A stretch of 64,000 nt of DNA from NCBI RefSeq assembly GCF_947500995.1, contig NZ_CANMUA010000002.1:310001-374000 (forward strand), written 5' to 3'. Origin of the DNA: an uncultured Serinicoccus sp. GTDB taxonomy: Bacteria > Actinomycetota > Actinomycetes > Actinomycetales > Dermatophilaceae. The notes below the pieces were generated by a model, which was given only the letters and a program-made list of their open reading frames with translations, did not search any database and was not told the DNA's origin. Below, in pieces: positions 3,471 through 25,446 of this stretch; within the stretch, counting starts at the first letter, position 1, and the number at the start of each line of letters is the position of its first letter. Both the position numbers and the translations under genes were made by a program.

Positions 3471-4240
3471 GTGATGGTCCCCATCTCGGCGTAGTCGCAG
3501 TGGATGGTGTCGCCCTTCGAGACCCACACCGGGCGGGTGAAGGAACCCGCGAGGATGATCTCGCCGGCCTCGAGCCGGTCCCCGTGCTGGTGGACCTTGT
3601 TGGCCAGCCAGGCCACGCCCGTGGCGGGATGGCCGAGGACCCCCGCGGCGACGCCGGTCTCCTCGACCTCGCCGTTGCGGGACAGCACGCCGGGGACCCA
3701 GCGCAGGTCGACCTCGTCCGGGCGCCGGCGGACGTCGCCGAGCACCATCGCCCCGTAGGCCGCGTTGTCGCTGATCGTGTCCACGATCGTCCGGCCCTCG
3801 AGCTCGATGTGGGAGTTGAGGATCTCCAGCGCCGGGACGGCGTGGTCGATCGCCGCCAGCGCGTCCTCCAGGGTGCAGTCCGGCCCGGTCAGCGGCTCGG
3901 CGAGGACGAACGCCAGCTCGACCTCGATGCGGACGTTGGAGAAGTGGTCGACCGGGATCTCAGCTCCGGAGGCGTGGACGGTGTCGTCGAACATGACGCC
4001 GTAGTCCGGCTCGGTGATCCCCGTGGCCTGCTGCATCGCCTTGGAGGTCAGGCCGATCTTGCGGCCCACCAGCCGGCGGCCGGCGGCGAGGTTCGTGTCC
4101 CGCCAGACGCCCTGGATGGCGTAGGAGTCCTCGACCGTCGCCTCGGGGTGGCGCGCGGTGATCCGCGGGACCACCGAGTGCGTCCGGTCGGCCTCGGCCA
4201 GCTCCTCGGCGATCGTCGCGATCTGCTCGGGCGTCAGCAT
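3455..4240 (-). CDS. hpaH: 2-oxo-hept-4-ene-1,7-dioate hydratase
   Basis: This 261-residue protein belongs to the 2-keto-4-pentenoate hydratase family (FAH fold) and hydrates 2-oxohept-4-ene-1,7-dioate to the 4-hydroxy compound used by HpaI. Recognisable blocks are [13 protein letters not shown], the acidic metal-binding residues in [10 protein letters not shown] and [10 protein letters not shown], and the C-terminal [14 protein letters not shown] motif of this family. The ATG start at 4240 is 16 bases from the hpaD stop. Gene order hpaE-hpaD-hpaH-hpaI follows the pathway and supports assignment to the homoprotocatechuate route rather than to catechol cleavage. MhpD-type hydratases are the main alternative, but the neighbours argue against them. 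Confidence 0.88.
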
Positions 4241-4256: not shown

Positions 4257-5423
4257 TCACAGCTGGTGCCCCAGCTTGTACTCGCCCTTCTTCCAGTCGG
4301 GCATCTCCTCGTCCTCGTCCCGGCGGGTGTAGGAGAAGCCGTCCGCGCCGATGGTCACCTGCATCTCGGAGTCGTCCGTCCTCGCCACCACCGGCTGCGG
4401 GTTGCCGTCCAGGTCGAGCACAAGGGAGGCCTCGGTGTACCAGGACGGCACCACCGGGTTGCCCCACCAGTCGCGCCGCTGGTTGTCGTGCACGTCCCAG
4501 GTGATGACGGGGTTGTCGGGGTCGCCGGTGTAGTAGTCCTGGGTGTAGATCTCGACCCGGTGCCCGTCCGGGTCGCGCAGGTAGAGGTAGAAGGCGTTGG
4601 ACACGCCGTGCCGGCCGGGACCGCGCTCGATGGCGTCCGACCGGCGCAGCGCGCCGAGCTTGTCGCAGATGGCCAGGATGTTGTGCTTCTCGTGGGTGGA
4701 GAAGGCGACGTGGTGCATCCGCGGACCGTCGCCCCCGGTCATCGCGGTGTCGTGCACGGTCGGCTTGCGCCGCATCCACGCGGCATACACCGTGCCCGCG
4801 TCGTCCTGGATGTCCTCGGTGACCCGGAACCCGAGGTCCTGCATGAACCGCGTGGCGCGCGGCACGTCGGGGGTCACCTGGTTGAAGTGGTCCAGGCGCA
4901 CCAGGGCACCGGGGGTGTAGAGGTCGTAGCGCCACGCCAGCCGCTCGACGTGCTCGACGTCGTGGAAGAACTCGTAGGGGAAGCCCAGCGGGTCGGTGAC
5001 GCGCACGGAGTCGCCGACCCCCCGGGTGAAGCCCTCGGCCCGCCGCTCGACCCGGCACCCGAGCTCGGTGTAGAACGCGACGGCCCTGTCCAGGTCCTCC
5101 GGGGAGCGCACCCGGTAGGAGAACGCCGCCACCGCGGCGACCGGACCCTGGCGCAGGACGAGGTTGTGGTGGATGAACTCCTCGATCGAGCGCAGGTAGA
5201 CGGTGGAGTCGTCCTCCTCGGTGACGGTCAGGCCGAGGACGTCCACGTAGAAGTCGCGGGACGCGGCCAGGTCGGTGACGACGATCTCCATGGAGGCGCA
5301 GCGCAGGATGTCGGGGGCCGGCACCGACGGGGTCGGCACCGGGTCGTCGGTCTGGATGGGTGCCTCCTGGGAGACGTAGTAGCCCGAGGAGGTGAGGGTC
5401 TTGTCGGTATGCCTGTCGCTCAT
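4257..5423 (-). CDS. hpaD: 3,4-dihydroxyphenylacetate 2,3-dioxygenase (type I extradiol)
   Basis: This opens the homoprotocatechuate ring between C2 and C3 with O2. It is a two-module vicinal-oxygen-chelate protein of 388 residues, close to the length of the Brevibacterium and Arthrobacter enzymes. The expected 2-His-1-Glu metal ligands are present: His in VRLDHFNQ (about 179), His in MHHVAFST (about 236) and Glu in HRVEIYTQ (about 290). The long C-terminal tail (GNPVVPSWYTE to the end) that covers the active site in this subfamily is also present. The ATG at 5423 follows AAGGA. A much longer open frame runs upstream, antisense-like and in another frame to hpaE, and I rejected it. The serine-threonine-rich start (residues 1-40) is slightly longer than usual. 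Confidence 0.9.
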   Translation of the reverse strand: MSDRHTDKTLTSSGYYVSQEAPIQTDDPVPTPSVPAPDILRCASMEIVVTDLAASRDFYVDVLGLTVTEEDDSTVYLRSIEEFIHHNLVLRQGPVAAVAAFSYRVRSPEDLDRAVAFYTELGCRVERRAEGFTRGVGDSVRVTDPLGFPYEFFHDVEHVERLAWRYDLYTPGALVRLDHFNQVTPDVPRATRFMQDLGFRVTEDIQDDAGTVYAAWMRRKPTVHDTAMTGGDGPRMHHVAFSTHEKHNILAICDKLGALRRSDAIERGPGRHGVSNAFYLYLRDPDGHRVEIYTQDYYTGDPDNPVITWDVHDNQRRDWWGNPVVPSWYTEASLVLDLDGNPQPVVARTDDSEMQVTIGADGFSYTRRDEDEEMPDWKKGEYKLGHQL

Positions 5424-5476: not shown

Positions 5477-7012
<1,536 letters not shown>

Positions 7013-7028: not shown

Positions 7029-7733
7029 TCAGAACGCCGGGAGACCCAGCGCCTCGTCGGGGTGCTCGTGGATGAGGTAGGCGTCGAGGGTGGCAGACCG
7101 GTGCCGCCGGGCAGCCTTCTCGATCTCGCCCAACGGCGCGCCGCGCTCGATGAGCTGCAGGATGTTCTCGTGCTCGTGCACGGATTCCTGCGCGCGGCCG
7201 GGGACGAAGCTGAAGGTGGAGTCGCGCAGGTGGCCCAGCCGGGCCCACTCGGCCTCGACGAGCTCCAGCAGCCGTGGGTTCGGGCACGGCCCGTAGAGCG
7301 TGGAGTGGAACTCCTGGTTGAGGCGGGTGAAAGCGCGCGGGTCGAAGTGCTCCAGCGTCTCGATCATCAGGTCGTTGATGCTGCGGGCCGTGCGAAGGTC
7401 GTCGGCGCTCAGGCGGCGAGCGGCGAGTGCGGTCGCCGTCCCCTCCAGGATCGACAGCGACTGCATGCTGTGGCGGTACTGCGAGTCGTCCACCATCGAG
7501 ACCCGGGCACCCACGTTGCGCTCGAAGGTCACCAGCCCTTCGGCCTCCAGCTGACGGATCGCCTCGCGGACGGGGACGACGCTCATGTCGAGCTCACCGG
7601 CGATCATGCCGAGCACGAGGCGGTAGCCAGGTGTGAAGTCCTGGCTCGCGATGCGCTCCTTGATCCAGTGGTATGCCCGCTGAGACTTGCTGAGGGACGA
7701 GGCGTCCGCGCTGCTCAGCGCTCCTGGCGCCAT
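7029..7733 (-). CDS. GntR-family regulator, FCD (FadR-like) subfamily
   Basis: This 234-residue regulator has an N-terminal winged helix (MSVVPVREAIRQLEAEGLV) and a C-terminal FCD ligand-binding domain with the Asp/His residues that usually hold a metal (FTRLNQEFHSTLY and SVHEHENILQLIERG). I chose the ATG at 7733, preceded by GCGAGG; a GTG at 7754 has no ribosome-binding site. It overlaps the upstream FAH/RraA gene by 19 bases. FCD regulators usually bind short palindromes with a GT-N-AC core and release DNA when a carboxylic-acid metabolite binds. Three matching palindromes in the window (9320, 15114, 23922) make this the best candidate regulator. That pairing is inference. Confidence 0.85.
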   Translation of the reverse strand: MAPGALSSADASSLSKSQRAYHWIKERIASQDFTPGYRLVLGMIAGELDMSVVPVREAIRQLEAEGLVTFERNVGARVSMVDDSQYRHSMQSLSILEGTATALAARRLSADDLRTARSINDLMIETLEHFDPRAFTRLNQEFHSTLYGPCPNPRLLELVEAEWARLGHLRDSTFSFVPGRAQESVHEHENILQLIERGAPLGEIEKAARRHRSATLDAYLIHEHPDEALGLPAF

Positions 7734-9313
7734 GCGTCGTACCTCGCTCTCCACTCGGCGTTCATGGGGAAGAGCCCGTCGACCGGGTGGCCCTCCGCGA
7801 CCCGCTCCGCGATCCAGGCGTCCTCCGACTCCTTGGCGAGCGCGGCGTCGACGACCTCGTGGACCAGACCCGGGGGAATGACGACGACGCCGTCGGCGTC
7901 GCCCACGAGGACGTCACCGGGCTGGACGGTCGTTCCGCCGCAGGCGATCGTGAGGTCGTGGTCCCAGGGCACGTGCCGACGACCCAGGACCGCAGGATGG
8001 GCGCCCGAGCTGTAGACGGGGATGCCGACCGCGGCTACCGCGTCCAGGTCCCGCACCCCGCCGTCGGTGACGATGCCGGCGGCGCCGTTGGCGTGGGCCC
8101 GGATCGCGAGGATGTCCCCGAGGGTCCCGGAGCCGGACTCGCCCCGGGCCTCGATGACGATGACCTCGCCCTCCCCGACGGCGTCGAAGGCACGCTTCTG
8201 CGCGTTGTAGCCCCCTCCGTGGCTGCGGAAGAGATCTTCGCGGTTGGGCACGAAACGTAGGGTGCGGGCCACCCCGACGAGCTTGGCTCCGGGGTGCAGC
8301 GGCCGGACCCCGTCGATGGTGACGTTGTCGAGGCCGCGCTGCCGCAGCTGTTGCGAGAGCCCGGCGACGGGCACCCGGAGCAACTTGTCCCGCACCTCGG
8401 GGTCCAGGGCCGGGCGAGCGGCACCCTCCTGCGCGGCGTCGTCGGCCGCGGCGTCATCGGCCGCCGCGTCCTCGCCCGGCAGCCCCGCTGCCTCCCGGGA
8501 GCCCCATGCCTCAGCCCGCTGCGTGTCGTCGACGGCGGGCAGGGACCCCAGTCCGGGGTCGAAGCCGATCTCCCCCTGCACCACTGTGGTGACGAGGCGA
8601 CCGCTGGTGGGAGAACCCTCGGCGGTCGGGGCGTCCACCTCGACCTCGACCACGTCCCCGGGGGCGAGGACCGAGGAGCCGGCCGGGGTACCGGTGAGGA
8701 TGACGTCACCGGTCTCCAGGGTGAGGTGCTGCGCGAGGTCGGCGACGATCTGCGGGAGGGAGAAGATGAGCCCTGCAGTGGTGTCCTCCTGCGCGAGCTC
8801 CCCGTTCACCCAGGTACGGACCCGTAGCCCGGCCGGGTCGATGATGCTCGCGTCCAGGAGCTCGGGGCCGACCGGGGTGTAGCCGTCGCGGCCCTTGGAC
8901 CGCGCGTTGGATCCCTTGTCGTTCGCGCGCAGGTCGTAGAGACCCAGGTCGTTGGCGGCGGTCACCCAGCCCACGTACGACCACGCGTCCTCCTCGGTGA
9001 CGTGGCGGGCGGGCCTGCCGATGACGAGCGCCACCTCTCCCTCGAAGGCGAGCAGCTCCGTCGCTGCCGGCCGCTCCACCGTGCCCTGTGTGGCCGCCAC
9101 GGAGCTGGACGGCTTGAGGAAGTAGGACGGTGCCTCCGGGCGGCGGCCGCGCTGGTCGGCCCGTGAGGCGTAGCTGAGGTGGACGGCGACGATCTTCCCC
9201 GGCCGGCACGGGAGCCCGGCGAACCGCGGATCCTGGCGGACCGACGGGCCGTGGCCTGCCGGATCGTACGCCTGCTCGTCGCTCGACACAGGAGCTCCCT
9301 CGCTCGTCATCAT
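7715..9313 (-). CDS. Fused fumarylacetoacetate-hydrolase domain and RraA-like aldolase/decarboxylase domain
   Basis: This 532-residue protein joins two enzymes. Residues about 20-255 are an FAH-fold domain with the acidic metal site (FEGEVALVIG, RANDKGSNARSKGRDGYTPVGPE) and the GDVILTGTPAGS motif, matching HpaG decarboxylase/isomerase. After a linker with an Ala/Asp-rich repeat (EDAAADDAAADDAA, about 285-300), residues about 320-532 are RraA-like, as in 4-hydroxy-4-methyl-2-oxoglutarate aldolases, with the catalytic Arg-Asp in DGGVRD and GDVLVGDADGVVVIP. HpaG makes the substrate for HpaH, so the FAH half fits the pathway; the RraA half could decarboxylate oxaloacetate or cleave an aldol. Tandem ATGs lie at 9313 and 9310, and a palindromic operator lies 7 bases upstream. 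It follows a strong hairpin after dctP and so probably opens the hpa transcript. Confidence 0.82.
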   Translation of the reverse strand: MMTSEGAPVSSDEQAYDPAGHGPSVRQDPRFAGLPCRPGKIVAVHLSYASRADQRGRRPEAPSYFLKPSSSVAATQGTVERPAATELLAFEGEVALVIGRPARHVTEEDAWSYVGWVTAANDLGLYDLRANDKGSNARSKGRDGYTPVGPELLDASIIDPAGLRVRTWVNGELAQEDTTAGLIFSLPQIVADLAQHLTLETGDVILTGTPAGSSVLAPGDVVEVEVDAPTAEGSPTSGRLVTTVVQGEIGFDPGLGSLPAVDDTQRAEAWGSREAAGLPGEDAAADDAAADDAAQEGAARPALDPEVRDKLLRVPVAGLSQQLRQRGLDNVTIDGVRPLHPGAKLVGVARTLRFVPNREDLFRSHGGGYNAQKRAFDAVGEGEVIVIEARGESGSGTLGDILAIRAHANGAAGIVTDGGVRDLDAVAAVGIPVYSSGAHPAVLGRRHVPWDHDLTIACGGTTVQPGDVLVGDADGVVVIPPGLVHEVVDAALAKESEDAWIAERVAEGHPVDGLFPMNAEWRARYDAWRQER

Positions 9314-9318
9314 GAACG

Positions 9319-9332
9319 GATCGTATATGATC
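9319..9332 (-). promoter_or_regulatory. Operator 1 of the ATCGTATAyGAT set (FAH/RraA-hpa transcript)
   Basis: GATCGTATATGATC is a near-perfect palindrome immediately upstream of the start codon of the FAH/RraA gene. The core ATCGTATATGAT recurs exactly at 23922 and with two changes at 15114. The GTAT/ATrC centre fits the FadR-type GntR regulators, one of which is encoded in this transcript. Its position suggests repression. Confidence 0.65.
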
Positions 9333-9367
9333 TCTTCGGGCCGGCACAAGCGCCGTGCCGGCCCGGC

Positions 9368-15196: not shown

Positions 15197-16606
15197 CTAC
15201 CGGGTCAGCACGACCGGGACTGCGACGGACTTCAGCCCCTCGACCCCGAACTCCAGGCCGTAGCCGGAGCCCTTGATGCCGCCGAACGGCACCATCGGGT
15301 GGATGCCGCCGTGCTTGTTGATCCAGATGCTGCCGGCCTCCAGGCGCAGCGCCGTCTGCTGCGCTGCCTCCGGGTCGTCGGACCACACGGAGGCGCCCAA
15401 CGCGGCATCGAGGCCGTTGGCTGCGGCGATGGCGTCGTCCAGGTCGGAGTAGCGGATCACCGGCAGGGCGGGCCCGAACTGCTCCTCGTCGACGATGGCG
15501 GTGCCGTCGGTGACGTCAGCCACGATGGTCACGGGGTAGAACAGCTCACCCAGATCGGTCGCGGGCTCCCCACCGGTGACGATCCGAGCACCCGACGCGC
15601 GGGCGTCTTCCACCAGGCGGGCGACGATGTCGAACTGCTGCTGGTTCTGCAGCGGCCCCAGGAGGTTCTCCTCGTCCAGCCCGTTGCCCATGGGCGTGGC
15701 CGTCGCGAGGCGCGCCAGCGCGTCGACGACCTCGTCGTACTGCGAGTCATGGACGTAGAGCCGCTTGAGCGCAGCACACGTCTGACCGGTGTTGAGGAAC
15801 GCTCCCCAGAACAGATCCTCGGCGTGCGCGGCGATGTCCGTCCCCGGGAGCACGATGCCGGCATCGTTGCCACCGAGCTCGAGCGTGAGACGCGTGAGGT
15901 TGTCGGCCGACGACCGGGCGATCGCCTTGCCGGTCGCGGTCGATCCGGTGAACATGATCTTGTCGATCCCCGGGTGCTCTGCCATCCCGGCGCCGATGTC
16001 CCGTCCGCCGGGGATGACGTGCAGGACGTCCTCCGGCAGCGCCTCGGCGAGGACGGCGACCAGGGCCTGGACGGACAAGGGGGTGTACTCGCTGGGCTTC
16101 ACCACGACCGTGTCACCGACGGTCAGCGCGGGCGCCACCTGCCAGACGGTGATCATCATCGGCCAGTTCCAGGGGCCGATGGCCCCGACGACGCCGGCGG
16201 GACGGTAGTGCAGCTCGGAGTGGTTGTCCGGCTCGTCGACGACCACCTCCGGGGCGAGCTCCAGCGACGCGGTCGCGCGCAACCAGGCGACACAGGCGCC
16301 GACCTCGAAGCGTGCGTTCGGCCCGTTCAGAGGCTTGCCCTGCTCGCGGGAGAGCAGCCGGGCCAACGCCTCGGAGTTCTCCTCCACCAGCTCGGCTGCA
16401 CGCATGAGCCGCTCACGACGCCCCTCGTAGCCCCTGGCCGCCCACGCGGGCTGAGCCGCACGGGCCGCGGCGACGGCCCGGTCGAGATCCTCCGCCGTGC
16501 ATTCGGCGGTGTGACCGATCAGGTCACCGGTGGCGGGGTCGTGGATCGCACGACCGTCCTGGACGCTCACACGGTCGAGCAGGTCGGTCTCGGGATGGTG
16601 GGGCAT
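15197..16606 (-). CDS. NAD(P)-dependent aldehyde dehydrogenase
   Basis: This 469-residue aldehyde dehydrogenase uses the ATG at 16606 behind GAGGAG; the longer frame to 16702 lacks support. The catalytic Glu is in LELGGNDAGI and the catalytic Cys in NTGQTCAALKRL. The PWNWPMM and KPSEYTPLS blocks of the cofactor site are intact. The C-terminal FGGIKGSGYGLEFG is typical of aromatic or aliphatic aldehyde oxidisers such as vanillin- or benzaldehyde-type enzymes. It lies close to the P450 fusion gene on the opposite strand. Oxidation of an aldehyde produced by the P450, either an aryl aldehyde or formaldehyde from demethylation, would fit, but the substrate is not determined. Confidence 0.85.
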   Translation of the reverse strand: MPHHPETDLLDRVSVQDGRAIHDPATGDLIGHTAECTAEDLDRAVAAARAAQPAWAARGYEGRRERLMRAAELVEENSEALARLLSREQGKPLNGPNARFEVGACVAWLRATASLELAPEVVVDEPDNHSELHYRPAGVVGAIGPWNWPMMITVWQVAPALTVGDTVVVKPSEYTPLSVQALVAVLAEALPEDVLHVIPGGRDIGAGMAEHPGIDKIMFTGSTATGKAIARSSADNLTRLTLELGGNDAGIVLPGTDIAAHAEDLFWGAFLNTGQTCAALKRLYVHDSQYDEVVDALARLATATPMGNGLDEENLLGPLQNQQQFDIVARLVEDARASGARIVTGGEPATDLGELFYPVTIVADVTDGTAIVDEEQFGPALPVIRYSDLDDAIAAANGLDAALGASVWSDDPEAAQQTALRLEAGSIWINKHGGIHPMVPFGGIKGSGYGLEFGVEGLKSVAVPVVLTR

Positions 16607-16623
16607 CGTCGCTCCTCTGGGGG

Positions 16624-16638
16624 TGGTCGGTACGACCA
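16624..16638. promoter_or_regulatory. Inverted repeat upstream of the aldehyde dehydrogenase
   Basis: TGGTCG and CGACCA flank a 3-base GTA centre, giving a perfect 15-bp dyad 18 bases before the aldehyde dehydrogenase start codon. It is operator-like and differs from the ATCGTATAyGAT set. The rest of the 128-base gap (16607-16734) shows nothing else. Confidence 0.4.
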
Positions 16639-16734
16639 GCCTGACCGGCGAGCACCATGCCGGAGTAGCCGAATCGCGCACGGTCACCGTCCAGGGACGC
16701 ACGGTCTCGGTGGACGGACCGGACGCGGCCGCCC

Positions 16735-17157
16735 TCAGGGGACCGTCCGGGGGTCGTCGAGGTCCGTGCCCTCCACGTAGGGCCCGTAGAACAGCTCGGC
16801 CCCCTCGGCGGTGAGCGTCGTCCCCGAGGCCGCCGCCCCGTCGAACCGGGCGATCAGCGCGAACCGGAGGCGTCCGTCGGCGGCCTCGGGGTCAGCGAGA
16901 GTGAGCACGGCTCCGGGCGGCGCCGGATGGATCCACGGGTCGGCCAGCACGACGCGCATCATGCCGTGGTGCCCCAGGAGGGTGACGGACCCCTGGAAGT
17001 GCTGGACGGACCGGTCGAGGAGATCGGCCTCGACGTCGGGCGCGAAGGCGAAACCGGCGTCGTGCTGCTCGACGCCGTCGAGCAGCACGCGGCCATCGGG
17101 CATACCCCGCACATAGCTCAGCAGCGAGGCCTTGACGCCCCAGACGAGCCTGGTCAT
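16735..17157 (-). CDS. HtaA-domain protein without signal peptide (putative cytosolic heme-binding protein)
   Basis: This 140-residue protein is essentially one HtaA domain, known from corynebacterial heme-uptake proteins. The start MTRLVWGVKASLLSYV matches the WGVKxSFxxYV signature, and LLGHHGMMRVVLADPWI matches the GHxG-LxLxLxDP segment. The Tyr (15) and His (63/64) at heme-ligand positions are retained. Unlike classical HtaA proteins it has no signal peptide or membrane anchor. Its ATG overlaps the LysR stop codon (ATGA), so it is co-translated with the regulator that lies divergent to the P450 fusion. A role in delivering or sensing heme for the P450, or a structural role unrelated to heme, are both possible. 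Family assignment is moderately sure; role is speculative. Confidence 0.65.
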   Translation of the reverse strand: MTRLVWGVKASLLSYVRGMPDGRVLLDGVEQHDAGFAFAPDVEADLLDRSVQHFQGSVTLLGHHGMMRVVLADPWIHPAPPGAVLTLADPEAADGRLRFALIARFDGAAASGTTLTAEGAELFYGPYVEGTDLDDPRTVP

Positions 17158-18071
17158 CCCGTGGCTCCAGGCCAGCGGATCGACGTGGCGAAGTCGATCA
17201 GTCGGCGGGCGCGCTCGGTGGGCGGCGCTGCCGCCGACCAGATCACCTCTATCCCCACCGGAGGAACCGCGGGGCGGATCTCCTTCATGACGACAGGATA
17301 TCCCTCGTAGGTCCTCGGGTTGGCCGGCCGCTGGACCAGGATGCCGTACCCGAGGCCGCGGCCGACGAGCGTCCGCACCGCCTCGTAGCTGGCGGTCCGC
17401 AGCCGGATGCGCGGGGTCAGGCCGCGGCGGGCGAACAGCGACAGCGTGTGCTGGCTGGAGGGTGGTGCGTCCAGCAGGATGAGGTCGCGACCCACCACCT
17501 GCTCGAGCTCGATCACCTCCTCGGAGGCCAGCGGGTCGTCGGCCGCCAGCAGGACGTGCGCCGGGACGCTGAAGAGCTGCTGGCGTCGCGGGTTGCCCGG
17601 CACCAGGGTGTCGTAGACGAAGGCGACATCCACCTCCCCGGACTCCAGCCGCCCCTCGAGCTGGTCGTGGGTGGCCTCGACGACGTCCAGCTCCACCCGT
17701 GGGTGCGTGGTGCCGAACTCGTCGAGCAGACGCGGCAGGATCGTCGGTGCCAGGATCGGGTGACAGCCCAGGGTGACCGGGCCCACCAGCTCGCCGGCTG
17801 AGCTGCGCAACGACAGAGCAAGGTCCCCGGCGTCGGACAGCAGCCGGTGGGCCCGCGAGGCCACCCGCACGCCCGCGCTGGTGAGTCGGATACCGTGCGC
17901 GCGGCGGCGGATGCACAGCCGCTCCCCCAGGGCGTGCTCCAGCGCGGTGATGGCGTCGGAGATGGCGCTCGGGGTGACGTGCAGACGTGCGGACGCGGCG
18001 GCGATGGTCCCCTCGTCGGCCGCCGTCAGGAAGTACGACAGCTGCCGCAGCGTGTAGTCCGGCCCTTGCAT
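17154..18071 (-). CDS. LysR-family transcriptional regulator
   Basis: This 305-residue regulator has the N-terminal winged helix-turn-helix (LRQLSYFLTAADEGTIAAASARLHVTPSAISDAITALEHALG, residues 8-50) and the periplasmic-binding-like effector domain (about 90-300). It is divergent from the P450 fusion, with 99 bases between them, the classical arrangement for a LysR regulator and its target. The effector pocket is unknown. A TAAAGT hexamer six bases before the ATG could be a -10 for leaderless transcription, although GAGGT in the same place could act as a ribosome-binding site. The HtaA-domain gene is coupled downstream. Confidence 0.88.
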   Translation of the reverse strand: MQGPDYTLRQLSYFLTAADEGTIAAASARLHVTPSAISDAITALEHALGERLCIRRRAHGIRLTSAGVRVASRAHRLLSDAGDLALSLRSSAGELVGPVTLGCHPILAPTILPRLLDEFGTTHPRVELDVVEATHDQLEGRLESGEVDVAFVYDTLVPGNPRRQQLFSVPAHVLLAADDPLASEEVIELEQVVGRDLILLDAPPSSQHTLSLFARRGLTPRIRLRTASYEAVRTLVGRGLGYGILVQRPANPRTYEGYPVVMKEIRPAVPPVGIEVIWSAAAPPTERARRLIDFATSIRWPGATG

Positions 18072-18170
18072 ACCTCGACTTTATCGAAGTTCTCCCGGGG
18101 ATATCACCGCTTTTGCTCACGTGTGCGCTCCCGCATACTCGACCTCATCCCCGGACCACAAGGACGTGCC
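18072..18170. promoter_or_regulatory. Divergent control region between LysR and P450 fusion
   Basis: The 99-base gap is AT-richer than its surroundings. It contains TATC and GATA elements 14 bases apart (18081-18102, LysR T-N11-A-like) and, for the P450 gene, a weak TTGCTC and CATACT pair ahead of AAGGACGTGCC-ATG. I see no better -10 and assign these only tentatively. Confidence 0.35.
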
Positions 18171-21140
18171 ATGACCTTCGACGCACCAGTTGCCGACTGG
18201 GTGAGGATCCCCGACCTCTACACGGACCCGTTCCCGCTCTACGAGCGGTTGCGGTCCGAAGGGGGGGTGCACTGGGTCCCGCAGGTCGGCCGCTACCTCA
18301 TCACCAGCTACGCCGCCGTCCACGAGACCGAGCTGGACCAGGAGGTCTACTCGGCCGACGAGGAGGGCTCGTTGCAGATCCGCGCCATGGGGCACTCCAT
18401 GCTGCGGCGCGACGACCCGGAGCACTACCGCGAGCGGACCGCCTGGCAGCCGGCACTTCGGCCCGGCGCGGTGCGACGGACGTGGACCGAGGTGTTCCAG
18501 CGCAACGCCGAACGCTACCTCGAGGAGTTCCTCAGCCGGGGCCCGGAGGCCGACCTCATCTGGGACTTCGCCGCGCCCTATGCCGCCGAGAACCTCAGGG
18601 AGATCATCGGTCTGCACAACGCCTCCCAGGAGGACCTGCAGCGCTGGTCGCAGACGATGATCGACGCCACCGGCAACTACGCCGACGACCCGGACGTCTG
18701 GGCTGCCGGCCTCGCCTCCTACGAGGAGGTCGACATCGCCCTGGACGAGATGCTCCGGTGGCACCAGGACAACCCGAACGCCTCCCTCCTCTCCCAGCTG
18801 CTGCGCATCCCGGACTACGAGATGCCGCTCGAGCGCATCCGGGCCAACGTCAAGATGACGATCGGGGGCGGTCTCAACGAGCCCCGCGACGCCCTCGGTG
18901 TCGCGGCGTGGGCCCTGCTGACCCACCCGGAGCAGCGGGCGGCCGTCGAGGCCGACCCGTCCCGGTGGCAGTCGGTCTTCGACGAGTCCATCCGGTGGGT
19001 CGCCCCGATCGGGCTCTACTCGCGACAGGTCACGCGCGACACCGTTCTCGAGGGGGTCCGGCTGCCCCGGGGTGCCAAGCTGGGCATCTGCATCTTGTCC
19101 GCGAACCGGGACGAGCGGGTGTGGGACCGGCCGGCGAGCTTCGACATCCATCGCGAGGTCAAGCCTCATCTCGCCTTCGGCAAGGGCGTCCACGTCTGCC
19201 TGGGCGCCTGGGTCGCCCGCGCCGAGGTCGCTGACGTCGCACTCCCCCTGCTGTTCGGCCGTCTCGAGGGGCTCGGGCTCTCAGCCACCCGGACGCCGGA
19301 GATCCGCGGTTGGGTCTTCCGGGGGATGACCAGGCTCCCGGTGACCTGGACGGGCACCCGCGCGCCCGCGGAGGCTGCGCAGGCCGAGGACAGCCGCGCG
19401 CCGATGGAGGACACCGGCGACCTGGCCCCGCGCATCGTGGTGGTGGGTTCCGGGCCGGCCGGCTCCTTCAGCGCCCAGGCCTTGCGGCGCACCTTCCCCA
19501 CGGCCCCCATCGACGTGCTCGAGGGGCTCCCCACCCCCTACGGGCTCGTGCGCTACGGCGTGGCCGCGGACCACCAGGGCACGAAGTCGGTGGCCCGTCA
19601 GTTCGAGCGCCTCTTCCTGCACGAGGACGTGCGGTTCCGTGGCAACCTCCGTCTGGGCCACGACGTCTCCCTCGAGGAGCTGCGTCGCGCCTACGACGTC
19701 GTGGTGCTGGCGACGGGCCTGCAGTCCGACGCCCCTCTCCCCGTCCAGGGGGCGCACCTGCCACGGGTGCATGGCGCGGGGCGGATCACCCGCCTGCTCA
19801 ATTCCCACCCTGACGAGGACGAGGCCCCCCGTCTCGGCCCCACCGTGGTGGTCGTGGGCCACGGCAACGTGGCCATGGACGTCGCACGCATGCTGGCTCG
19901 GCACCCCGACGACCTCGAGGACAGCGACGTGGCCGACGAGGCCCGGGAGCGACTGTGCGGCAGCGTCCGCACGCTGCACCTGGTAGGTCGCAGTGACCCC
20001 GCCTCGGCCAGCTTCGACCCCGTGATGGTGCGGGAGCTGGCGACCCTGCGGGGTGTGCGACACATCGTGCACGGTGTCGAAGCGCTCCCTGCGGACGGCA
20101 AGGATGCTCGCGTCGAGGCCGTCCGCTCCCTCGCCGATGTGCACCCGCGGCAGGAGCGTGTCCGCATCGAGTGGTGGTTCGGACTGTCCCCCCTCGACAT
20201 CCAGGGGACCGAGAGCCTCGAGGCGGTCGTCTTCGAGGGTCCGGACGGCGAGGTGGTCCTCCCGGCCGACGACCTCGTGACCGCCATCGGCTTCGCCGCG
20301 GACCCGGACACCCCGGTGGAGCCGGGCTCCACACCCGACGGCCGTGTCGAGCCGGGGCTCTACACGGCAGGTTGGCTGCGCCGAGGGCCCCGGGGCACGA
20401 TTCCCGACCAGCGCCTGGACGCCCGGAGCCTGGCCCGGGCGGTCGCGGAGGACGTGTCGAGCGGGGCGGTGGAGGTGTCCAGGACCGGGCTGCCCTCCCG
20501 GGCGCACGAGGTGTCTTTCGAAGGCTGGCGACGGATCGATCTGCGGGAGCGACTCGCGGCTGCGCCGGGTCGCCAGCGGGCCAAGCTGCCCTCCCGGACG
20601 GCGCAGCTGCAGGCGGCCACGGACGACTCCCTCCTGCCCCCTGAACCGGCTGGCGTCGACCTGCGACTGCCGGAGGGTCAGGCGATGACGATCCTGTTCG
20701 CGACGGAGTCGGGCGGGGCCGAGCTCGTCGCCACCGACCTCCACCGTTCCCTGGGTGAGGACGCCGACGTCCAGATCCGGGACCTGGACGGGACGGCCCC
20801 GGCCGACCTCGACCCGGGCCGAACTCACCTGCTCGTGTGCTCGACGTACGGCGACGGCGAGGTGCCGACCTCCGCGCGACCCTTCCATGCCGCTCTGCGG
20901 TCCGGGGAGCACGACCTCACCGGCCTGCGCTACGCCGTCTTCGGCATGGGCGACCGGAGCTACACCCGGACCTACTCCCGCGGGAGCGAGCTGATCGACG
21001 AGGCCATGGCCGCCGCGGGTGCGACGCGCTTCGGCGAGTACGGCCGCCACGACGCGAGCGGCCCCGACGCAGCGGCGGAGGCCGCGGTCGAATGGCTGCA
21101 GGGTGTCCTGGCCGAGCTCGCCGAGGTGGCCCACGCCTGA
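18171..21140 (+). CDS. Self-sufficient cytochrome P450 fused to adrenodoxin-reductase-type FAD reductase and FMN flavodoxin
   Basis: One 989-residue chain holds a complete electron-transfer system. Residues 1-395 are a P450: ExxR as ESIR (272-275), heme loop FGKGVHVCLG with Cys343, and an unusual I-helix GGGLNEP (232-238) lacking the usual acid-alcohol pair. After a short linker, residues about 418-790 resemble FprA/adrenodoxin reductase: FAD motif GSGPAG (426-431), PTPYGLVRYGVAADH, and NADP motif GHGNVAMDVAR from 563. The second Arg of the usual GRR NADPH site is Ser608. Residues about 838-980 are a flavodoxin: FATESGGAE phosphate loop, STYGDGEVPTSARPF and FGMGDRSYTRTYSRG. Electron flow would be NAD(P)H-FAD-FMN-heme. 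The ATG at 18171 follows AAGGA; longer upstream frames are antisense to LysR. Substrate unknown; an aromatic methyl or methoxy compound fits the neighbours. Confidence 0.9.
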   Translation: MTFDAPVADWVRIPDLYTDPFPLYERLRSEGGVHWVPQVGRYLITSYAAVHETELDQEVYSADEEGSLQIRAMGHSMLRRDDPEHYRERTAWQPALRPGAVRRTWTEVFQRNAERYLEEFLSRGPEADLIWDFAAPYAAENLREIIGLHNASQEDLQRWSQTMIDATGNYADDPDVWAAGLASYEEVDIALDEMLRWHQDNPNASLLSQLLRIPDYEMPLERIRANVKMTIGGGLNEPRDALGVAAWALLTHPEQRAAVEADPSRWQSVFDESIRWVAPIGLYSRQVTRDTVLEGVRLPRGAKLGICILSANRDERVWDRPASFDIHREVKPHLAFGKGVHVCLGAWVARAEVADVALPLLFGRLEGLGLSATRTPEIRGWVFRGMTRLPVTWTGTRAPAEAAQAEDSRAPMEDTGDLAPRIVVVGSGPAGSFSAQALRRTFPTAPIDVLEGLPTPYGLVRYGVAADHQGTKSVARQFERLFLHEDVRFRGNLRLGHDVSLEELRRAYDVVVLATGLQSDAPLPVQGAHLPRVHGAGRITRLLNSHPDEDEAPRLGPTVVVVGHGNVAMDVARMLARHPDDLEDSDVADEARERLCGSVRTLHLVGRSDPASASFDPVMVRELATLRGVRHIVHGVEALPADGKDARVEAVRSLADVHPRQERVRIEWWFGLSPLDIQGTESLEAVVFEGPDGEVVLPADDLVTAIGFAADPDTPVEPGSTPDGRVEPGLYTAGWLRRGPRGTIPDQRLDARSLARAVAEDVSSGAVEVSRTGLPSRAHEVSFEGWRRIDLRERLAAAPGRQRAKLPSRTAQLQAATDDSLLPPEPAGVDLRLPEGQAMTILFATESGGAELVATDLHRSLGEDADVQIRDLDGTAPADLDPGRTHLLVCSTYGDGEVPTSARPFHAALRSGEHDLTGLRYAVFGMGDRSYTRTYSRGSELIDEAMAAAGATRFGEYGRHDASGPDAAAEAAVEWLQGVLAELAEVAHA

Positions 21141-21168: not shown

Positions 21169-21888
21169 CTATCCCTGAAGGGCCGTGCGGATGGCGTCGG
21201 CGGAGCGGGAGAGCCGTTCGGCGACCCTCCGCGGGTCGGTCGAGTCCACGACGTGCACGACGGCGAGCGCCGCTGGTGGGCGATCACGTAGCGCCAGCGG
21301 CACCGCCACGGACTGCACCGAGCGGATCACCTCGTCGTGACTGGTGGCGTAGCCCTGCGTGCCTACCACCCGCACCTCCTCGACCAGGCCCGTGCCGACG
21401 CCGTCGGGCCACTGGTCGAGGGGGACCTGGGCCAGGATCGCCTTGCCCGGGGCGCCGACCGTGACCGGGTGCCGGGCCCCGGGACGCTGGGCCACCGACG
21501 CGACTGCATGGCGTGGCTCGATGCTGGCAATGGTGATGGCCTCGTCGCGGTCCAGGAGGGAGAGGAAGCACGTCATCCCGAGGTCGTTCGCCACCGCAGT
21601 GAGCTCGGGCAGGGCCTGCGCCTGCAGATCCCGGGTGACGCCGGCGGCGAGGGCGGCCAGGCGGGCGCCCAGCTCGATGCGCCCGCTCGAGTCCCGGACG
21701 ACCAGGCCGTGGTGCTCGAGGGTCCGCACCAGCCGGTAGGCCACCGACCGGTGCACCTCGAGTCGCCCGGCGATGTCATCGATGGTCAGCGACTCCCCCG
21801 CGTCCGCGAGCACCTCGAGGACCCGGATGCCTCGGCTGAGGGTCTGCGACGCCGGAACGTCGCGCCCGACGGGAGGCCCTGCTGCCAC
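21169..21888 (-). CDS. IclR-family transcriptional regulator
   Basis: This 239-residue regulator has the winged helix in the first 75 residues (SRGIRVLEVLADAGESLTIDDIAGRLEVHRSVAYRLVRTLEHHGLV) and the IclR effector domain after it (about 85-239, with TVGAPGKAILAQ). It starts at a GTG with AGGAGGAGG immediately upstream. It is divergent from the mobA-like gene and convergent with the P450 fusion gene (28-base gap). A long inverted repeat in the divergent promoter is its probable operator. IclR proteins controlling aromatic acid hydroxylases usually act as inducer-dependent activators or repressors; which applies here cannot be read from sequence. Confidence 0.87.
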   Translation of the reverse strand: MAAGPPVGRDVPASQTLSRGIRVLEVLADAGESLTIDDIAGRLEVHRSVAYRLVRTLEHHGLVVRDSSGRIELGARLAALAAGVTRDLQAQALPELTAVANDLGMTCFLSLLDRDEAITIASIEPRHAVASVAQRPGARHPVTVGAPGKAILAQVPLDQWPDGVGTGLVEEVRVVGTQGYATSHDEVIRSVQSVAVPLALRDRPPAALAVVHVVDSTDPRRVAERLSRSADAIRTALQG

Positions 21889-22033: not shown

Positions 22034-23932
22034 ATGCAGTTCCACCACCACGGCTACGTCTCCGGCGACCCGCGTGTCCAGGAGGCCGCCGGCACCGGGG
22101 TGGACCGTCCGACGGAGCTCCCCGACACCACCGACGTGCTGCTCGTCGGGTCCGGACCCGCCGGCATGCTGCTGGCGGCGCAGCTGTCGCAGTTCCCCCA
22201 GGTGTCCACCCGCATCATCGAGCGCCGCGAGGGCCGGCTGCCGCTGGGCCAGGCGGACGGCATCCAGCCCCGCAGCGTCGAGACCTTCCAGGCCTTCGGC
22301 TTCGCCGAACGCATCGTCGCCGAGGCCTACAACATCGCCTACATGAACTTCTGGGGCCCGGACCCGGAGAACCCGCAGAACATCGTGCGGACCGCCCGGA
22401 CCGAGGACTACGGGCTCAAGATCAGCGAGTTCCCGCACCTCATCGTCAACCAGGCGCGGGTGCTCGACTACTTCGCCGAGGCCGCCCGCAACGGACCCGG
22501 GCGCATCGTCCCGGACTACGGCGTGGAGTTCGTCGGGCTCACCGTCCACGACGAGGGTGAGCACCCCGTGGAGGTGCGGCTGCGTCACGTCGCCGGCGAC
22601 CGGCAGGGTGAGGAGCGCACGGTCCGGGCGAGGTATGTCGTGGGGTGCGACGGAGCCCGCAGCGGGGTGCGCGAGGCGATCGGGCGGCGGCACACCGGGC
22701 AGTCCGCCGCGCACGCCTGGGGGGTGATGGACGTGCTGGTCAACACCGACTTCCCCGACTGGCGGACGAAGTGCGCCATCAACGCCGAGGCGGGCAACAT
22801 CCTGCACATCCCCCGCGAGGGCGGATACCTCAGCCGGATGTACATCGACCTGGGCGAGTCCCCCGAGGACCCCGACCACGCCATCCGCCGTACGCCGATC
22901 GAGGACATCATCCGGCGGGCGAACGAGATCCTGCACCCCTACTCCATCGACGTGAAGGAGGTCGCCTGGCACAGCGTCTACGAGGTCGGCCACCGGGTGA
23001 CCGACAAGTTCGACGACGTGCCCGAGGGCTCGGACCGTGCGCCGCGGGTCTTCCTCACCGGCGACGCCTGCCACACCCACAGCGCCAAGGCCGGCCAGGG
23101 CATGAACGTCTCGATGCAGGACGGCTTCAACCTCGGCTGGAAGCTCGGCCACGTGCTCGCCGGGCTCAGCCCCGCCTCGCTGCTGGCGACCTACTCCGCG
23201 GAGCGCCAGCCTGTCGCCCAGGAGCTCATCGACTTCGACCGCGAGTGGTCCTCCCTCATGGCCCGCAAGCCGCAGGACATCTCCGACCCCTCCGAGCTGG
23301 CCACCTTCTACCTCGGCACCGCCGAGTTCCCCTCTGGGTTCATGACGCAGTACGCGCCCTCGACCCTCGTCGCGGACACCGGCCACCAGGAGCTCGCCGA
23401 GGGGTTCCCGCTGGGCAAGCGGCTCAAGTCCGCCGCGGTGGTCCGGGTCTGCGACGGCAACGCCGTGCACCTCGGGCACCACGCCCGTGCCGACGGGCGC
23501 TGGCGCATCTACGCCTTCGCCGACGGCCCGGCCGCCGGCGAGCCCTCGGCGCTCTCGGACTGGGCCGCCTGGGCGGCCTCCCCCGTGTCGCCGGTCTCCC
23601 GCTTCACGCCCCAGGGGGCCGACCCGGACGCGGTCTTCGACGTCAAGGTCGTCTTCCAGCAGGGTTACGAGGACGTCGACCTGGGCCGGGTGCCCGCGGT
23701 GTTCCTGCCCCGCAGCGGTCCGTTGGGCCTCACCGACTGGGAGAAGGTCTTCGCCGCGGCACCGAACGCCTGGACGGACACGGACATCTTCGTCGAGCGC
23801 GGGCTGTCCCGGGACGGGGTGGTCGTGGTGGTGCGCCCGGACCAGTACGTCTCGGCGATCCTCCCGCTGACCGCGACGCAGGAGCTGGGTGCCTACTTCG
23901 AGGCGAACATGCTCCCGCCAAATCGTATATGA
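22034..23932 (+). CDS. mobA: 3-hydroxybenzoate 4-monooxygenase-like FAD hydroxylase
   Basis: This 632-residue flavoprotein converts 3-hydroxybenzoate with NADPH and O2 to protocatechuate if the assignment is right. The N terminus (MQFHHHGYVSGDP), the LGQADGIQPRSVETFQAFGFAERI block and the overall length match Comamonas MobA as I recall it. FAD site GSGPAG is at 39-44, the DG motif in VVGCDGARS, and the GD motif in VFLTGDACHTHSAKAGQGMN. The last 180 residues form the thioredoxin-like dimer domain of phenol-hydroxylase enzymes, ending VVVVRPDQYVS. The ATG at 22034 has AAGGAG eight bases away. The final codons read Pro-Asn-Arg-Ile-stop with a rare ATA because the 3' end lies inside operator 3. 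Phenol 2-monooxygenase is the main alternative. Confidence 0.83.
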   Translation: MQFHHHGYVSGDPRVQEAAGTGVDRPTELPDTTDVLLVGSGPAGMLLAAQLSQFPQVSTRIIERREGRLPLGQADGIQPRSVETFQAFGFAERIVAEAYNIAYMNFWGPDPENPQNIVRTARTEDYGLKISEFPHLIVNQARVLDYFAEAARNGPGRIVPDYGVEFVGLTVHDEGEHPVEVRLRHVAGDRQGEERTVRARYVVGCDGARSGVREAIGRRHTGQSAAHAWGVMDVLVNTDFPDWRTKCAINAEAGNILHIPREGGYLSRMYIDLGESPEDPDHAIRRTPIEDIIRRANEILHPYSIDVKEVAWHSVYEVGHRVTDKFDDVPEGSDRAPRVFLTGDACHTHSAKAGQGMNVSMQDGFNLGWKLGHVLAGLSPASLLATYSAERQPVAQELIDFDREWSSLMARKPQDISDPSELATFYLGTAEFPSGFMTQYAPSTLVADTGHQELAEGFPLGKRLKSAAVVRVCDGNAVHLGHHARADGRWRIYAFADGPAAGEPSALSDWAAWAASPVSPVSRFTPQGADPDAVFDVKVVFQQGYEDVDLGRVPAVFLPRSGPLGLTDWEKVFAAAPNAWTDTDIFVERGLSRDGVVVVVRPDQYVSAILPLTATQELGAYFEANMLPPNRI

Positions 23933-23979: not shown

Positions 23980-25446
23980 ATGAGCCAGCACCAGGAGCGC
24001 GACCTGCTCGCACGCGTGCCCGACCGCCTGTTCATCGCGGGACGGTGGCGTCCTGCCGAGAGCGGGGGCACCCTCGAGGTACGCGACCCCGCCACCGGGG
24101 AGGTCATCAAGGAGATCGCGGACGCGACCCCGGCAGATGGGATGGCCGCGCTCGACGCCGCCGAGGCTGCCTCCGCAGGATGGGGAGGAACCCCGGCGCG
24201 CGAACGGGGCGAGCTGCTACGCCGCGCCTACGACCTGCTGATCGAGCGGCAGGAGGAGTTCGCGCTGCTCATGACCATCGAGATGGGCAAGCCGCTCGCG
24301 GAGGCCCGTGGTGAGGTGACCTACGGCGCGGAGTTCCTCCGGTGGTTCGGCGAGGAGGCCGTGCGCGTGCAGGGCCGCTACGGTCCCAATCCCGAGGGCA
24401 CCGGACGGATCATCGTGTCCCAGCACCCGGTCGGGATCTGCCACCTCATCACCCCCTGGAACTTTCCCCTGGCGATGGCCACCCGCAAGATCGCCCCGGC
24501 GCTGGCGGCCGGGTGCACCGTCATCGTCAAGCCGGCCGCGCTGACCCCGCTGACCACGCTGCACCTCGTGCAGCTGCTCGAGGAGGTCGGTCTCCCCGCG
24601 GGCGTGGTCAACGTCGTGACGACCTCCTCCTCCGGGCAGGTGTCAGAACCCATCATCCGCGACCCGCGCCTGGCCAAGCTGTCCTTCACCGGTTCGACAC
24701 CGGTGGGCCAGCATCTGCTGGAGCAGGCGGCCCAGGGAGTGCTCCGCACCTCGATGGAGCTAGGAGGAAACGCGCCCTTCGTCGTGTTCGACGACGCCGA
24801 CCTGGACCAGGCCGTCGACGGGGCGATGCTCGCCAAGTTCCGCAACATCGGCCAGGCATGCACCGCGGCCAACAGGTTCATCGTCCACCGGGACGTCGCC
24901 GAGGAGTTCTCGCGACGGGTGACCGAGCGGGTCCGTCGACTCAAGGTCGGTCGCGGCACCGAGGAGGGCGTCACCATCGGGCCGCTCATCGACGACCGTG
25001 CGGTCGACAAGGCCTCCTCACTGGTCCAGGACGCCGTGATGCGTGGCGCGGAGGTCACCACCGGCGGTGAGGCGGTCCACGGTGACGGCAGCTTCTTCGC
25101 CCCGACCGTCGTCACCGGAGTCCGCGAGGGCAGCGACATCCTCCGCGAGGAGATCTTCGGCCCGGTGCTGGCCATCGTCCCCTTCGAGGACGAGGACGAC
25201 GCTGTCCGCATCGCGAACGACACCGAGTACGGTCTGGTCTCCTACGTCTACACCGAGAGCCTGTCACGCGGTCAGCGGATGATCGACCGCCTCCACACCG
25301 GCATGATGGGGCTCAACGTCGGCGTCGTCTCGAACGCGGCGGCCCCCTTCGGCGGATGGAAGATGTCCGGTCTCGGCCGGGAGGGCGGTGCCGAAGGGAT
25401 CCACGAGTACCTCCAGACCAAGTACACCTTGACCCCGAACCCCTGA
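23980..25446 (+). CDS. gabD: Succinate-semialdehyde dehydrogenase-like aldehyde dehydrogenase
   Basis: This 488-residue aldehyde dehydrogenase of the GabD type oxidises succinic semialdehyde to succinate. Catalytic Glu in SMELGGNAPFVVFDDADLD and Cys in FRNIGQACTAANRF are diagnostic of GabD, as are the block PWNFPLAMATRKIAPALAAGCT and the substrate-loop residues near NVGVVSNAAAPFGGWKMSGLGREGG. The ATG at 23980 follows AGGGAG; the longer frame begins inside mobA and was rejected. Succinic semialdehyde is the HpaI product, and this gene shares its operator with the hpa transcript 14 kb away, so it very likely finishes the homoprotocatechuate pathway. An NADP preference, common in GabD, is not proven here. 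Confidence 0.87.
   Translation: MSQHQERDLLARVPDRLFIAGRWRPAESGGTLEVRDPATGEVIKEIADATPADGMAALDAAEAASAGWGGTPARERGELLRRAYDLLIERQEEFALLMTIEMGKPLAEARGEVTYGAEFLRWFGEEAVRVQGRYGPNPEGTGRIIVSQHPVGICHLITPWNFPLAMATRKIAPALAAGCTVIVKPAALTPLTTLHLVQLLEEVGLPAGVVNVVTTSSSGQVSEPIIRDPRLAKLSFTGSTPVGQHLLEQAAQGVLRTSMELGGNAPFVVFDDADLDQAVDGAMLAKFRNIGQACTAANRFIVHRDVAEEFSRRVTERVRRLKVGRGTEEGVTIGPLIDDRAVDKASSLVQDAVMRGAEVTTGGEAVHGDGSFFAPTVVTGVREGSDILREEIFGPVLAIVPFEDEDDAVRIANDTEYGLVSYVYTESLSRGQRMIDRLHTGMMGLNVGVVSNAAAPFGGWKMSGLGREGGAEGIHEYLQTKYTLTPNP

Follow-up and report, generated by a model that had tools for sequence, protein, structure and literature searches.

On the forward strand of the window, that is, the whole stretch of 64,000 nucleotides analysed here, positions 18171–21140 encode a P450, an FprA-type reductase and a flavodoxin, in this order, within one polypeptide. 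We consider it rather probable that this product is a self-sufficient fused P450 in which electrons would be relayed from NAD(P)H via FAD and FMN to heme, and which, under control of a LysR-type regulator, would O-demethylate a methoxylated arylacetate for entry into the homoprotocatechuate pathway. The observed basis comprises the architecture, its conservation, the grouping of the fused chains in two trees, intact cofactor motifs and the gene neighbourhood, from which we infer cofactor loading, electron route, substrate and regulation.

Gene and domain layout

The gene (18171–21140, +; defined by open frame, Pfam matches and orthologues) is a single intact reading frame of 989 aa, running from an ATG at 18171 to the stop codon at 21138–21140 without internal stops, and an AAGGA motif, read by eye, lies 6 nt 5' of the start. 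All Pfam matches obtained at E-values up to 0.01 are to p450 (residues 267–353, 2.1e-15), Pyr_redox_2 (421–713, 5.2e-10) and Flavodoxin_1 (841–975, 1.7e-20), none being to a [2Fe-2S] domain. In the PDB sequence search, residues 3–394 match 6g71, titled as CYP1232A24 from Arthrobacter, at 1.8e-161, and from this match and a fold search the CYP1232A24-like P450 domain was placed at residues 8–393 (18192–19349, +). It contains the heme loop HLAFGKGVHVCLG with Cys343 (19167–19205, +), as read from the sequence and the alignment of 41 fused chains, and is followed by a low-complexity linker of 15–43 residues across these chains (here residues 394–419; 19350–19427, +). The middle part matches adrenodoxin reductase (9.7e-48) and FprA (2e-47) in the PDB sequence search and, together with the fold search, defines an FAD/NADP domain of this type at residues 420–805 (19428–20585, +). 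Behind a second linker, delimited by alignment (residues 806–837; 20586–20681, +), the C-terminal part is a cindoxin-like FMN flavodoxin (residues 838–989; 20682–21137, +) according to Pfam, alignment and a PDB sequence match to cindoxin 4oxx (2.6e-24). As P450 and FprA chains fill both fold-search listings, with no flavodoxin row among the 50 matches listed in either, the flavodoxin assignment rests on sequence. The AlphaFold model of the fused chain, 21 sequences deep, reached a pLDDT of 75.6 and a pTM of 0.54 with low values near the heme loop, and its domain packing is unreliable. The domain identities, their order and the cofactor motifs in a single frame, all proposed in the initial annotation, are thus borne out by Pfam, PDB matches and the 41-chain alignment.

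Distribution and integrity of the fusion

The initial annotation had named a sequencing frameshift joining separate genes as a possible refutation and had suggested searching for the full-length architecture in other proteins. A full-length orthologue of 82% identity is present in a one-contig closed genome of the same genus. A genome-contig scan, seeded by six short peptides and hence returning close relatives only, yielded 22 further loci, of which 20 have the whole chain in a single open frame. Full-length single-frame matches were obtained in 2/186 genomes of the own family, 10/396 genomes at order level, 15/57 genomes of one genus and 10/299 genomes of one family. At class level, no full-length match was found in 394 genomes at an E limit of 1e-80 beyond the own one and G416 from the same order, and at phylum level none in 296 genomes beyond the own one at an E limit of 1e-100. 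Besides, a single gene with all three parts was absent from the 5 plasmid records examined of 20 listed (2 of the 5 being among the 10 records covering at least 80% of the query; 15 listed and 1304 unlisted records lie outside this set).

Altogether, the aligned set comprises 41 fused chains, 40 of them non-duplicate single-frame chains from elsewhere. Collinear unfused genes for P450, FAD reductase and flavodoxin in Rhodococcus pyridinivorans as well as chains split over two frames in three relatives (L048, L052 and G911, left unmended) might be taken as hints at a frameshift or assembly error joining three genes, but the 40 independent chains, one of them in the one-contig genome of the same genus, refute such a join, the chance of which we regard as vanishingly small. 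Since the P450 frame of G911 apparently continues, judged by eye, beyond the linker and out of register with the reductase, this copy was read as a frame-broken fused gene rather than as an ancestral two-gene stage.

Cofactor motifs, selection and proposed electron transfer

None of the 41 aligned fused chains deviates at Cys343, at Glu272 and Arg275 of the ExxR motif, at the FAD glycines, in the GxGNVAxD motif or at the core residues of the three FMN loops, in line with the heme loop previously described as intact. Other motif positions vary, for example, heme-loop Gly337, which is replaced by Ser in 23 of the 41. Having the Cys heme loop, the ExxR motif and the Pfam p450 match, the N-terminal domain belongs to the cytochrome P450 superfamily. 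Likewise, the middle domain, with its GxGxxG FAD and GxGNVAxD NADP motifs and overall fold, is a member of the FprA/adrenodoxin reductase fold family, and the C-terminal domain, with one loop for the FMN phosphate and two for the isoalloxazine ring, is a cindoxin-like flavodoxin. In FprA, an Arg-Arg pair contacts the 2'-phosphate of NADPH. The fused reductases fall outside this canonical subtype, all 41 having Arg-Ser instead. The Ser at this site reported in the initial annotation (Ser608) is correct but not the oddity it was taken for, as Arg-Ser is also found in 10 of 11 sampled unfused reductases with an adjoining flavodoxin (the exception, L076/L092, has Arg-Gly), compared with Arg-Arg in all 8 sampled without one. 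Because of this shared Arg-Ser, the fused reductase is assigned to a flavodoxin-paired subtype.

Compared with the orthologue from genome G016, dN/dS is 0.19 overall, with 0.09 for the P450, 0.27 for the FprA-type and 0.14 for the flavodoxin domain, and 0.45 and 0.44 for linkers 1 and 2, respectively. Hence, purifying selection acts on each domain. The fused P450s cluster in the P450 tree (SH-aLRT 100) and the fused reductases in the reductase tree (SH-aLRT 99), the only other row inside either cluster being the frame-broken G911 copy. This two-tree phylogeny is consistent with a single origin of the fusion. In the four unfused relatives checked, the adjoining gene encodes a [2Fe-2S] ferredoxin or a BphA4-like reductase, which suggests a swap of redox partners behind the fused chain.

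With the P450, FAD reductase and flavodoxin of a class III set in one polypeptide, all parts of the corresponding electron route are present and the enzyme is predicted to be self-sufficient. NAD(P)H would reduce the FAD of the FprA-like domain, from where single electrons would be handed to the FMN of the C-terminal flavodoxin, and the flexible linkers may leave the latter free to move to the CYP1232A-type heme domain on its proximal side. Alternatively, the fused chain might work in trans, a P450 being served by the flavodoxin of a second molecule, or cellular ferredoxins might deliver the electrons, with the fused reductase as a backup. The long and variable linkers, a reductase domain under weaker constraint than the other two and the reduction in trans known from BM3-type dimers would agree with this, yet the key FAD, NADP and FMN residues do not vary in any of the 41 chains, and we regard it as unlikely.

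Gene neighbourhood and candidate substrates

Divergent from the P450 gene, a LysR-type regulator is encoded (17154–18071, –; Pfam), which is present at 28 of the 30 other fused loci and is predicted to control the P450 gene. In the divergent gap between both (18072–18170), alignment reveals CCGCTTTT at 18107–18114, found exactly in 8 of 13 aligned divergent gaps. The start of a small HtaA-domain protein (140 aa; 16735–17157, –; Pfam HtaA 3.5e-12) overlaps the LysR stop. This protein, leaderless before its domain, is the sole HtaA match in the genome, and an HtaA-type neighbour occurs at 19 of the 30 other fused loci versus none of 17 unfused loci. Possibly, it is a heme-delivery factor. Further neighbours are an aldehyde dehydrogenase (15197–16702, –; profile matches), an IclR-type regulator (21169–21888, –; Pfam), a flavoprotein resembling 3-hydroxybenzoate 4-hydroxylase/phenol 2-monooxygenase (22034–23932, +; match to 2dkh at 1.8e-186) and a second aldehyde dehydrogenase (23995–25446, +, start approximate; profile matches). 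At other loci, MFS-transporter labels of neighbours were assigned by eye; one locus (L131, G1167), counted among the 30, has flanks without LysR, HtaA, GntR and hpa genes.

The window also contains homoprotocatechuate genes and neighbours of these, all on the reverse strand: a thiamine-diphosphate enzyme (874–2613; profile match), arylpyruvate-decarboxylase-like from context alone, an HpaI/HpcH-type aldolase (2670–3527; Pfam-type match), an HpaH-like hydratase (3455–4240; 341.5 bits, below the cut-off of 351.5), the homoprotocatechuate 2,3-dioxygenase HpaD (4257–5366, start approximate; 5e-191), the 5-carboxymethyl-2-hydroxymuconate semialdehyde dehydrogenase HpaE (5477–7012; 656.5 bits, above the cut-off of 638.35), a GntR-type regulator (7029–7754; matches below all listed cut-offs) and an HpaG-like protein of the fumarylacetoacetate hydrolase family (7715–9349; profile match). 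This pathway link is not universal, as it was seen at only 8 of the 30 other fused loci. Within flanks of about 4–8 kb, an HpaG-like protein of at least 54% identity and GntR were each found at 8 loci, the former being absent from 22, HpaE of at least 75% at 7, HpaD at 1 and HpaH and HpaI at none; at some loci the flank stops inside or beside HpaE, and such genes may lie beyond it.

Judged from the divergent LysR, the homoprotocatechuate genes, the flavoprotein, the aldehyde dehydrogenases and the kinship to CYP1232A24, the enzyme probably O-demethylates lignin-like aromatic acids, with methoxylated arylacetates as the favoured candidates. CYP1232A24 itself, according to a 2019 paper, reportedly converts homovanillate to 3,4-dihydroxyphenylacetate (homoprotocatechuate). 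The heme domain most likely acts on homovanillate, 3,4-dimethoxy- or 3-methoxyphenylacetate, and the demethylated product would enter the meta-cleavage pathway encoded in the window. By the same reasoning from context and kinship, these compounds are likelier substrates than the cresols put forward in the initial annotation. A less probable alternative is that the same self-sufficient enzyme takes a different substrate, namely a benzoate, a benzyl compound or one of cresol type, which it would demethylate or hydroxylate; as a tentative example, 3-methoxybenzoate might be converted to 3-hydroxybenzoate and then to protocatechuate via the adjoining flavoprotein. The latter, with counterparts at 5 of the 30 other fused loci and beside the unfused L086, fits such a substrate, as do the aldehyde dehydrogenases, whereas homoprotocatechuate is the predicted substrate of the ring-cleavage dioxygenase encoded here and the closest characterised P450 reportedly acts on phenylacetates. 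3-Methoxybenzoate or a meta-substituted benzyl compound would also be in keeping with a TRAP transporter, the aldehyde dehydrogenases, GMC oxidoreductases present at some loci and the neighbour resembling 3-hydroxybenzoate hydroxylase. In L086, the CYP1232-like P450 gene adjoins genes for such a hydroxylase and a GMC oxidoreductase.

Should arylacetate O-demethylation hold true, the fused enzymes would represent single-gene O-demethylases for lignin-derived aromatics. Only a few types of self-sufficient P450 occur in nature, and their value for biocatalysis lies in needing nothing beyond substrate, oxygen and NAD(P)H. The domain order found here, which includes a module of adrenodoxin-reductase type, would add a natural reference for flavin relays feeding heme, the diverse orthologues provide a ready panel of fused P450s, and with the adjoining HtaA protein bacterial heme loading into P450s becomes directly testable. 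As a bolder and more doubtful proposal, P450-FprA-flavodoxin chains may form a new natural class that arose once, when a fused flavin relay took the place of a ferredoxin-type partner, and that has its own intracellular HtaA-type heme loader and O-demethylates arylacetates; one locus would then supply the enzyme, its entire electron supply and the heme loader.

Comparison with known P450 systems

P450s sharing more than 40% identity are placed in one family and those sharing more than 55% in one subfamily. With 58% identity to 6g71 over 393 columns, the heme domain reaches the thresholds for both CYP1232 and CYP1232A. CYP1232A24 from Arthrobacter sp. is a stand-alone chain of 405 residues in the PDB, whereas here the heme domain is fused to both partners. 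The next-closest solved P450s, the aromatic O-demethylases GcoA (CYP255A) and SyoA, show about 28% identity and employ a separate reductase of another type. The I-helix motif GGGLNEP was correctly read in the initial annotation, but as an oddity it does not stand, since 6g71 has the identical GGGLNEPRD and SyoA (8u09) a similar GGLQEP at this position. With relatives having both features, the I-helix and Ser608 were rejected as marks of novel chemistry.

That no described class shows this domain order, as the initial annotation had supposed, agrees with the literature searched, in which no description of a P450-FprA-flavodoxin single chain was found, and with a ten-class P450 list (PMC11173547), where no class unites a flavodoxin with both P450 and ferredoxin reductase in a single polypeptide. 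An earlier description beyond this literature is quite improbable on these grounds, although most subscription papers lay outside the search and CYP1232 drew no paper.

CYP116B (class VII) is likewise self-sufficient with an N-terminal heme domain, but its reductase contains a [2Fe-2S] domain (PMC11173547), and the class VII set of FMN, NADH and [2Fe-2S] domains is not that of the fused chain. XplA/XplB (class VI) has the same three kinds of modules, and the likening to this system in the initial annotation proved apt. In the XplA/XplB-type L061, however, the flavodoxin part is N-terminal in the P450 gene, with a gene of its own for the FAD reductase, whereas here the reductase sits within the chain and the flavodoxin is C-terminal, which sets it apart from class VI. 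The Arg-Ser site is shared with the reductase of the Rhodococcus DN22 plasmid pair, recorded as FAD-dependent oxidoreductase and cytochrome P450 and presumably of XplA/XplB type. The plasmid of Rhodococcus pyridinivorans P23 (L060) encodes P450, FprA-type reductase and flavodoxin in the same order, but as three separate genes and with a P450 only 23% identical to that of the fused chain. Finally, in CYP102 (P450 BM3, class VIII), too, a single polypeptide combines heme with FMN and FAD; its C-terminal part is a diflavin CPR in which an FNR-type FAD domain follows the flavodoxin, whereas in the fused chain the FAD domain is of FprA type and precedes the flavodoxin, which comes last.

Distribution and conservation of the fused gene

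At window positions 18171–21140 on the forward strand, a single gene encodes a 989-aa chain of CYP1232A-type P450, FprA-type FAD/NADP reductase and flavodoxin. The initial annotation had considered a sequencing frameshift joining separate genes, which is not borne out, as a stop-free copy with 82% identity across residues 1–985 exists in the one-contig genome G016 of the same genus and a single open frame spans the match in 20 of 22 loci obtained by scanning genome contigs (Leucobacter, Agrococcus, Microbacterium, Labedella, Arthrobacter, Brevibacterium and an unassigned Micrococcales bacterium). In the other two, L048 (a MAG) and L052, the match is divided between two frames. Full-length matches were found in 2 of 31 genomes of the genus and 2 of 186 of the family, in both cases the own genome and G016, while single-frame full-length matches occur in 10/396 genomes at order level, 15/57 in the genus of G368 and 10/299 in the family of G416; at class level, the fused gene is present in 2/394 (own and G416 only) and at phylum level in 1/296 genomes (own only), with the genome sets of these searches overlapping and some genomes counted more than once. 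Additional copies are a gene broken into two frames in G911 (genus of G368) and a shorter match inside one long frame, reading 1056 aa, in G1167 (family of G416). From these counts, the distribution is patchy and limited to one order within the genomes searched.

Contig C11 of the own genome also carries a rearranged gene fragment (locus L055, 10001–10605), in which a reductase part (580 bp, 98.6% identical to window 19811–20390) and a flavodoxin part (32 bp, window 20838–20869) sit together in an order changed from that of the fused gene.

After removal of nine candidate rows that were broken or identical copies, 41 non-duplicate fused chains were aligned. Cys343, Glu272/Arg275 and the I-helix GGG-x-NEPRD are invariant in these, and the FAD glycines, GxGNVAxD and core FMN-loop residues do not vary either. 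Linker 1, in contrast, has between 15 and 43 residues, and linker 2 is likewise variable. Compared with G016, dN/dS amounts to 0.09 for the P450, 0.27 for the FprA and 0.14 for the flavodoxin domain, 0.44–0.45 for the linkers and 0.19 for the whole chain.

Two oddities noted initially were found as described, albeit not peculiar to the fused chain. The I-helix GGGLNEPRD indeed lacks the acid–alcohol pair, but is the same in CYP1232A24 from Arthrobacter (PDB 6g71), and SyoA (8u09) reads GGLQEP, so that this absence is a trait of the related P450 group. The Ser following Arg607, present in 41/41 fused chains, is also found in 10 of 11 sampled unfused reductases with a flavodoxin adjoining or next door in a P450 gene (L057, L059, L060, L061, L077, L088, L089, L120, L121, L122; the eleventh, L076/L092, has Gly), whereas all eight sampled without flavodoxin beside them have Arg. 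This Ser marks the reductase subtype rather than a defect.

Gene neighborhood and predicted substrate

Homoprotocatechuate 2,3-dioxygenase (HpaD), HpaE (scoring above its curated cut-off), an HpaI-type aldolase, an HpaG-like protein and an HpaH-like hydratase (slightly below its own cut-off) are encoded on the reverse strand of the window. The window further encodes two aldehyde dehydrogenases, a thiamine-diphosphate enzyme, a flavoprotein resembling 3-hydroxybenzoate 4-hydroxylase and parts of a TRAP transporter. CYP1232A24 reportedly converts homovanillate and 3,4-dimethoxyphenylacetate to homoprotocatechuate; hence, homology and gene context agree on arylacetate O-demethylation as predicted function of the fused P450. 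Among 30 other fused loci with flanks (L131 included), several of which stop at HpaE, LysR is found in 28, HpaE (at least 75% identity) in seven, the HpaG-like protein and GntR in eight each, the flavoprotein in five, the thiamine-diphosphate enzyme in four and HpaD in one, while HpaH and HpaI are absent from the flanks examined. As the HpaG-like gene is missing from these flanks in 22/30, the fused P450 may act on substrates other than arylacetates.

Much of the neighborhood is found without the fusion as well, since an unfused CYP1232-like P450 (L086, genome G345) is accompanied not only by a ferredoxin and a GMC oxidoreductase but also by an HpaE-like aldehyde dehydrogenase (40%), GntR (49%) and a 3-hydroxybenzoate-hydroxylase-like protein (64% identical). 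In the LysR–P450 gap, CCGCTTTT (window 18107–18114) is exactly conserved in 8 of 13 aligned gaps and is possibly an operator or promoter element.

HtaA protein

Immediately following LysR, with its start overlapping the LysR stop, is a gene (window 16735–17157, reverse strand) for a 140-aa HtaA-domain protein without leader ahead of the domain. Its closest solved relative is the HtaA domain within GFP (8smu, 4.3e-6), and Tyr15 and His63, which we take to be the HtaA heme-site positions, are invariant in 20/20 sequences. Being the sole HtaA match in the own genome argues against a role in heme uptake. One might guess at a dedicated heme chaperone, in line with its presence in 19/30 other fused versus 0/17 unfused loci examined, eight of which (L058, L084–L087, L123–L125) have a P450 at least 49% identical to the fused one. 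This contrast is only suggestive, however, as the unfused loci belong to other taxa and the compared flanks are short. Moreover, the protein is absent from 11/30 other fused loci, and none of the four Brevibacterium-type loci among those examined (L050, L094, L095, L129) has it, which speaks against a chaperone; the protein may instead act as a regulator or buffer heme.

Origin of the fusion

In quick maximum-likelihood trees, unrooted and with a hand-picked unfused comparison set, the P450 and reductase domains of fused chains each form one group (SH-aLRT 100 and 99, respectively), the sole "unfused" row within either being the frame-broken G911 gene. The closest unfused P450s (57–60% identity; L084, L085, L086, L087, L097, L098) are all stand-alone. 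When neighbors were tested at four loci, a [2Fe-2S] ferredoxin was found near the unfused P450s L058 and L086 and a BphA4-like reductase with Reductase_C domain near L084 and L090. Unfused relatives of the reductase and flavodoxin module occur as adjacent genes (e.g., L057, L059, L088, L089, L121), and on a Rhodococcus pyridinivorans plasmid P450, reductase and flavodoxin genes are separate in a collinear row. The simplest reading is that a single event, in an ancestor of the Micrococcales carrying the gene, linked a flavodoxin-type partner pair to a CYP1232-type P450; direction and timing of this event are inferred, both trees being unrooted.

At L088, L089, L120 and L121 (G225, G472, G903, G943), spread over two families, an unfused FprA–flavodoxin gene pair is divergent from another P450 that is only 24–27% identical to that of the fused chain, probably representing a separate class III system.

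Comparison with known P450 systems

The initial annotation knew of no described class with this domain order. In line with this, a P450–reductase–flavodoxin single chain is absent from the ten-class list of a 2024 review (PMC11173547), where class III comprises P450, ferredoxin reductase and flavodoxin as separate chains, and P450 fused to flavodoxin, the CYP116B type and BM3 represent classes VI, VII and VIII, respectively. A literature search, covering few subscription papers, did not return any description of a P450–FprA–flavodoxin single chain. We rate the fused chain as a new topology of self-sufficient P450 assembled from parts that are all already known.
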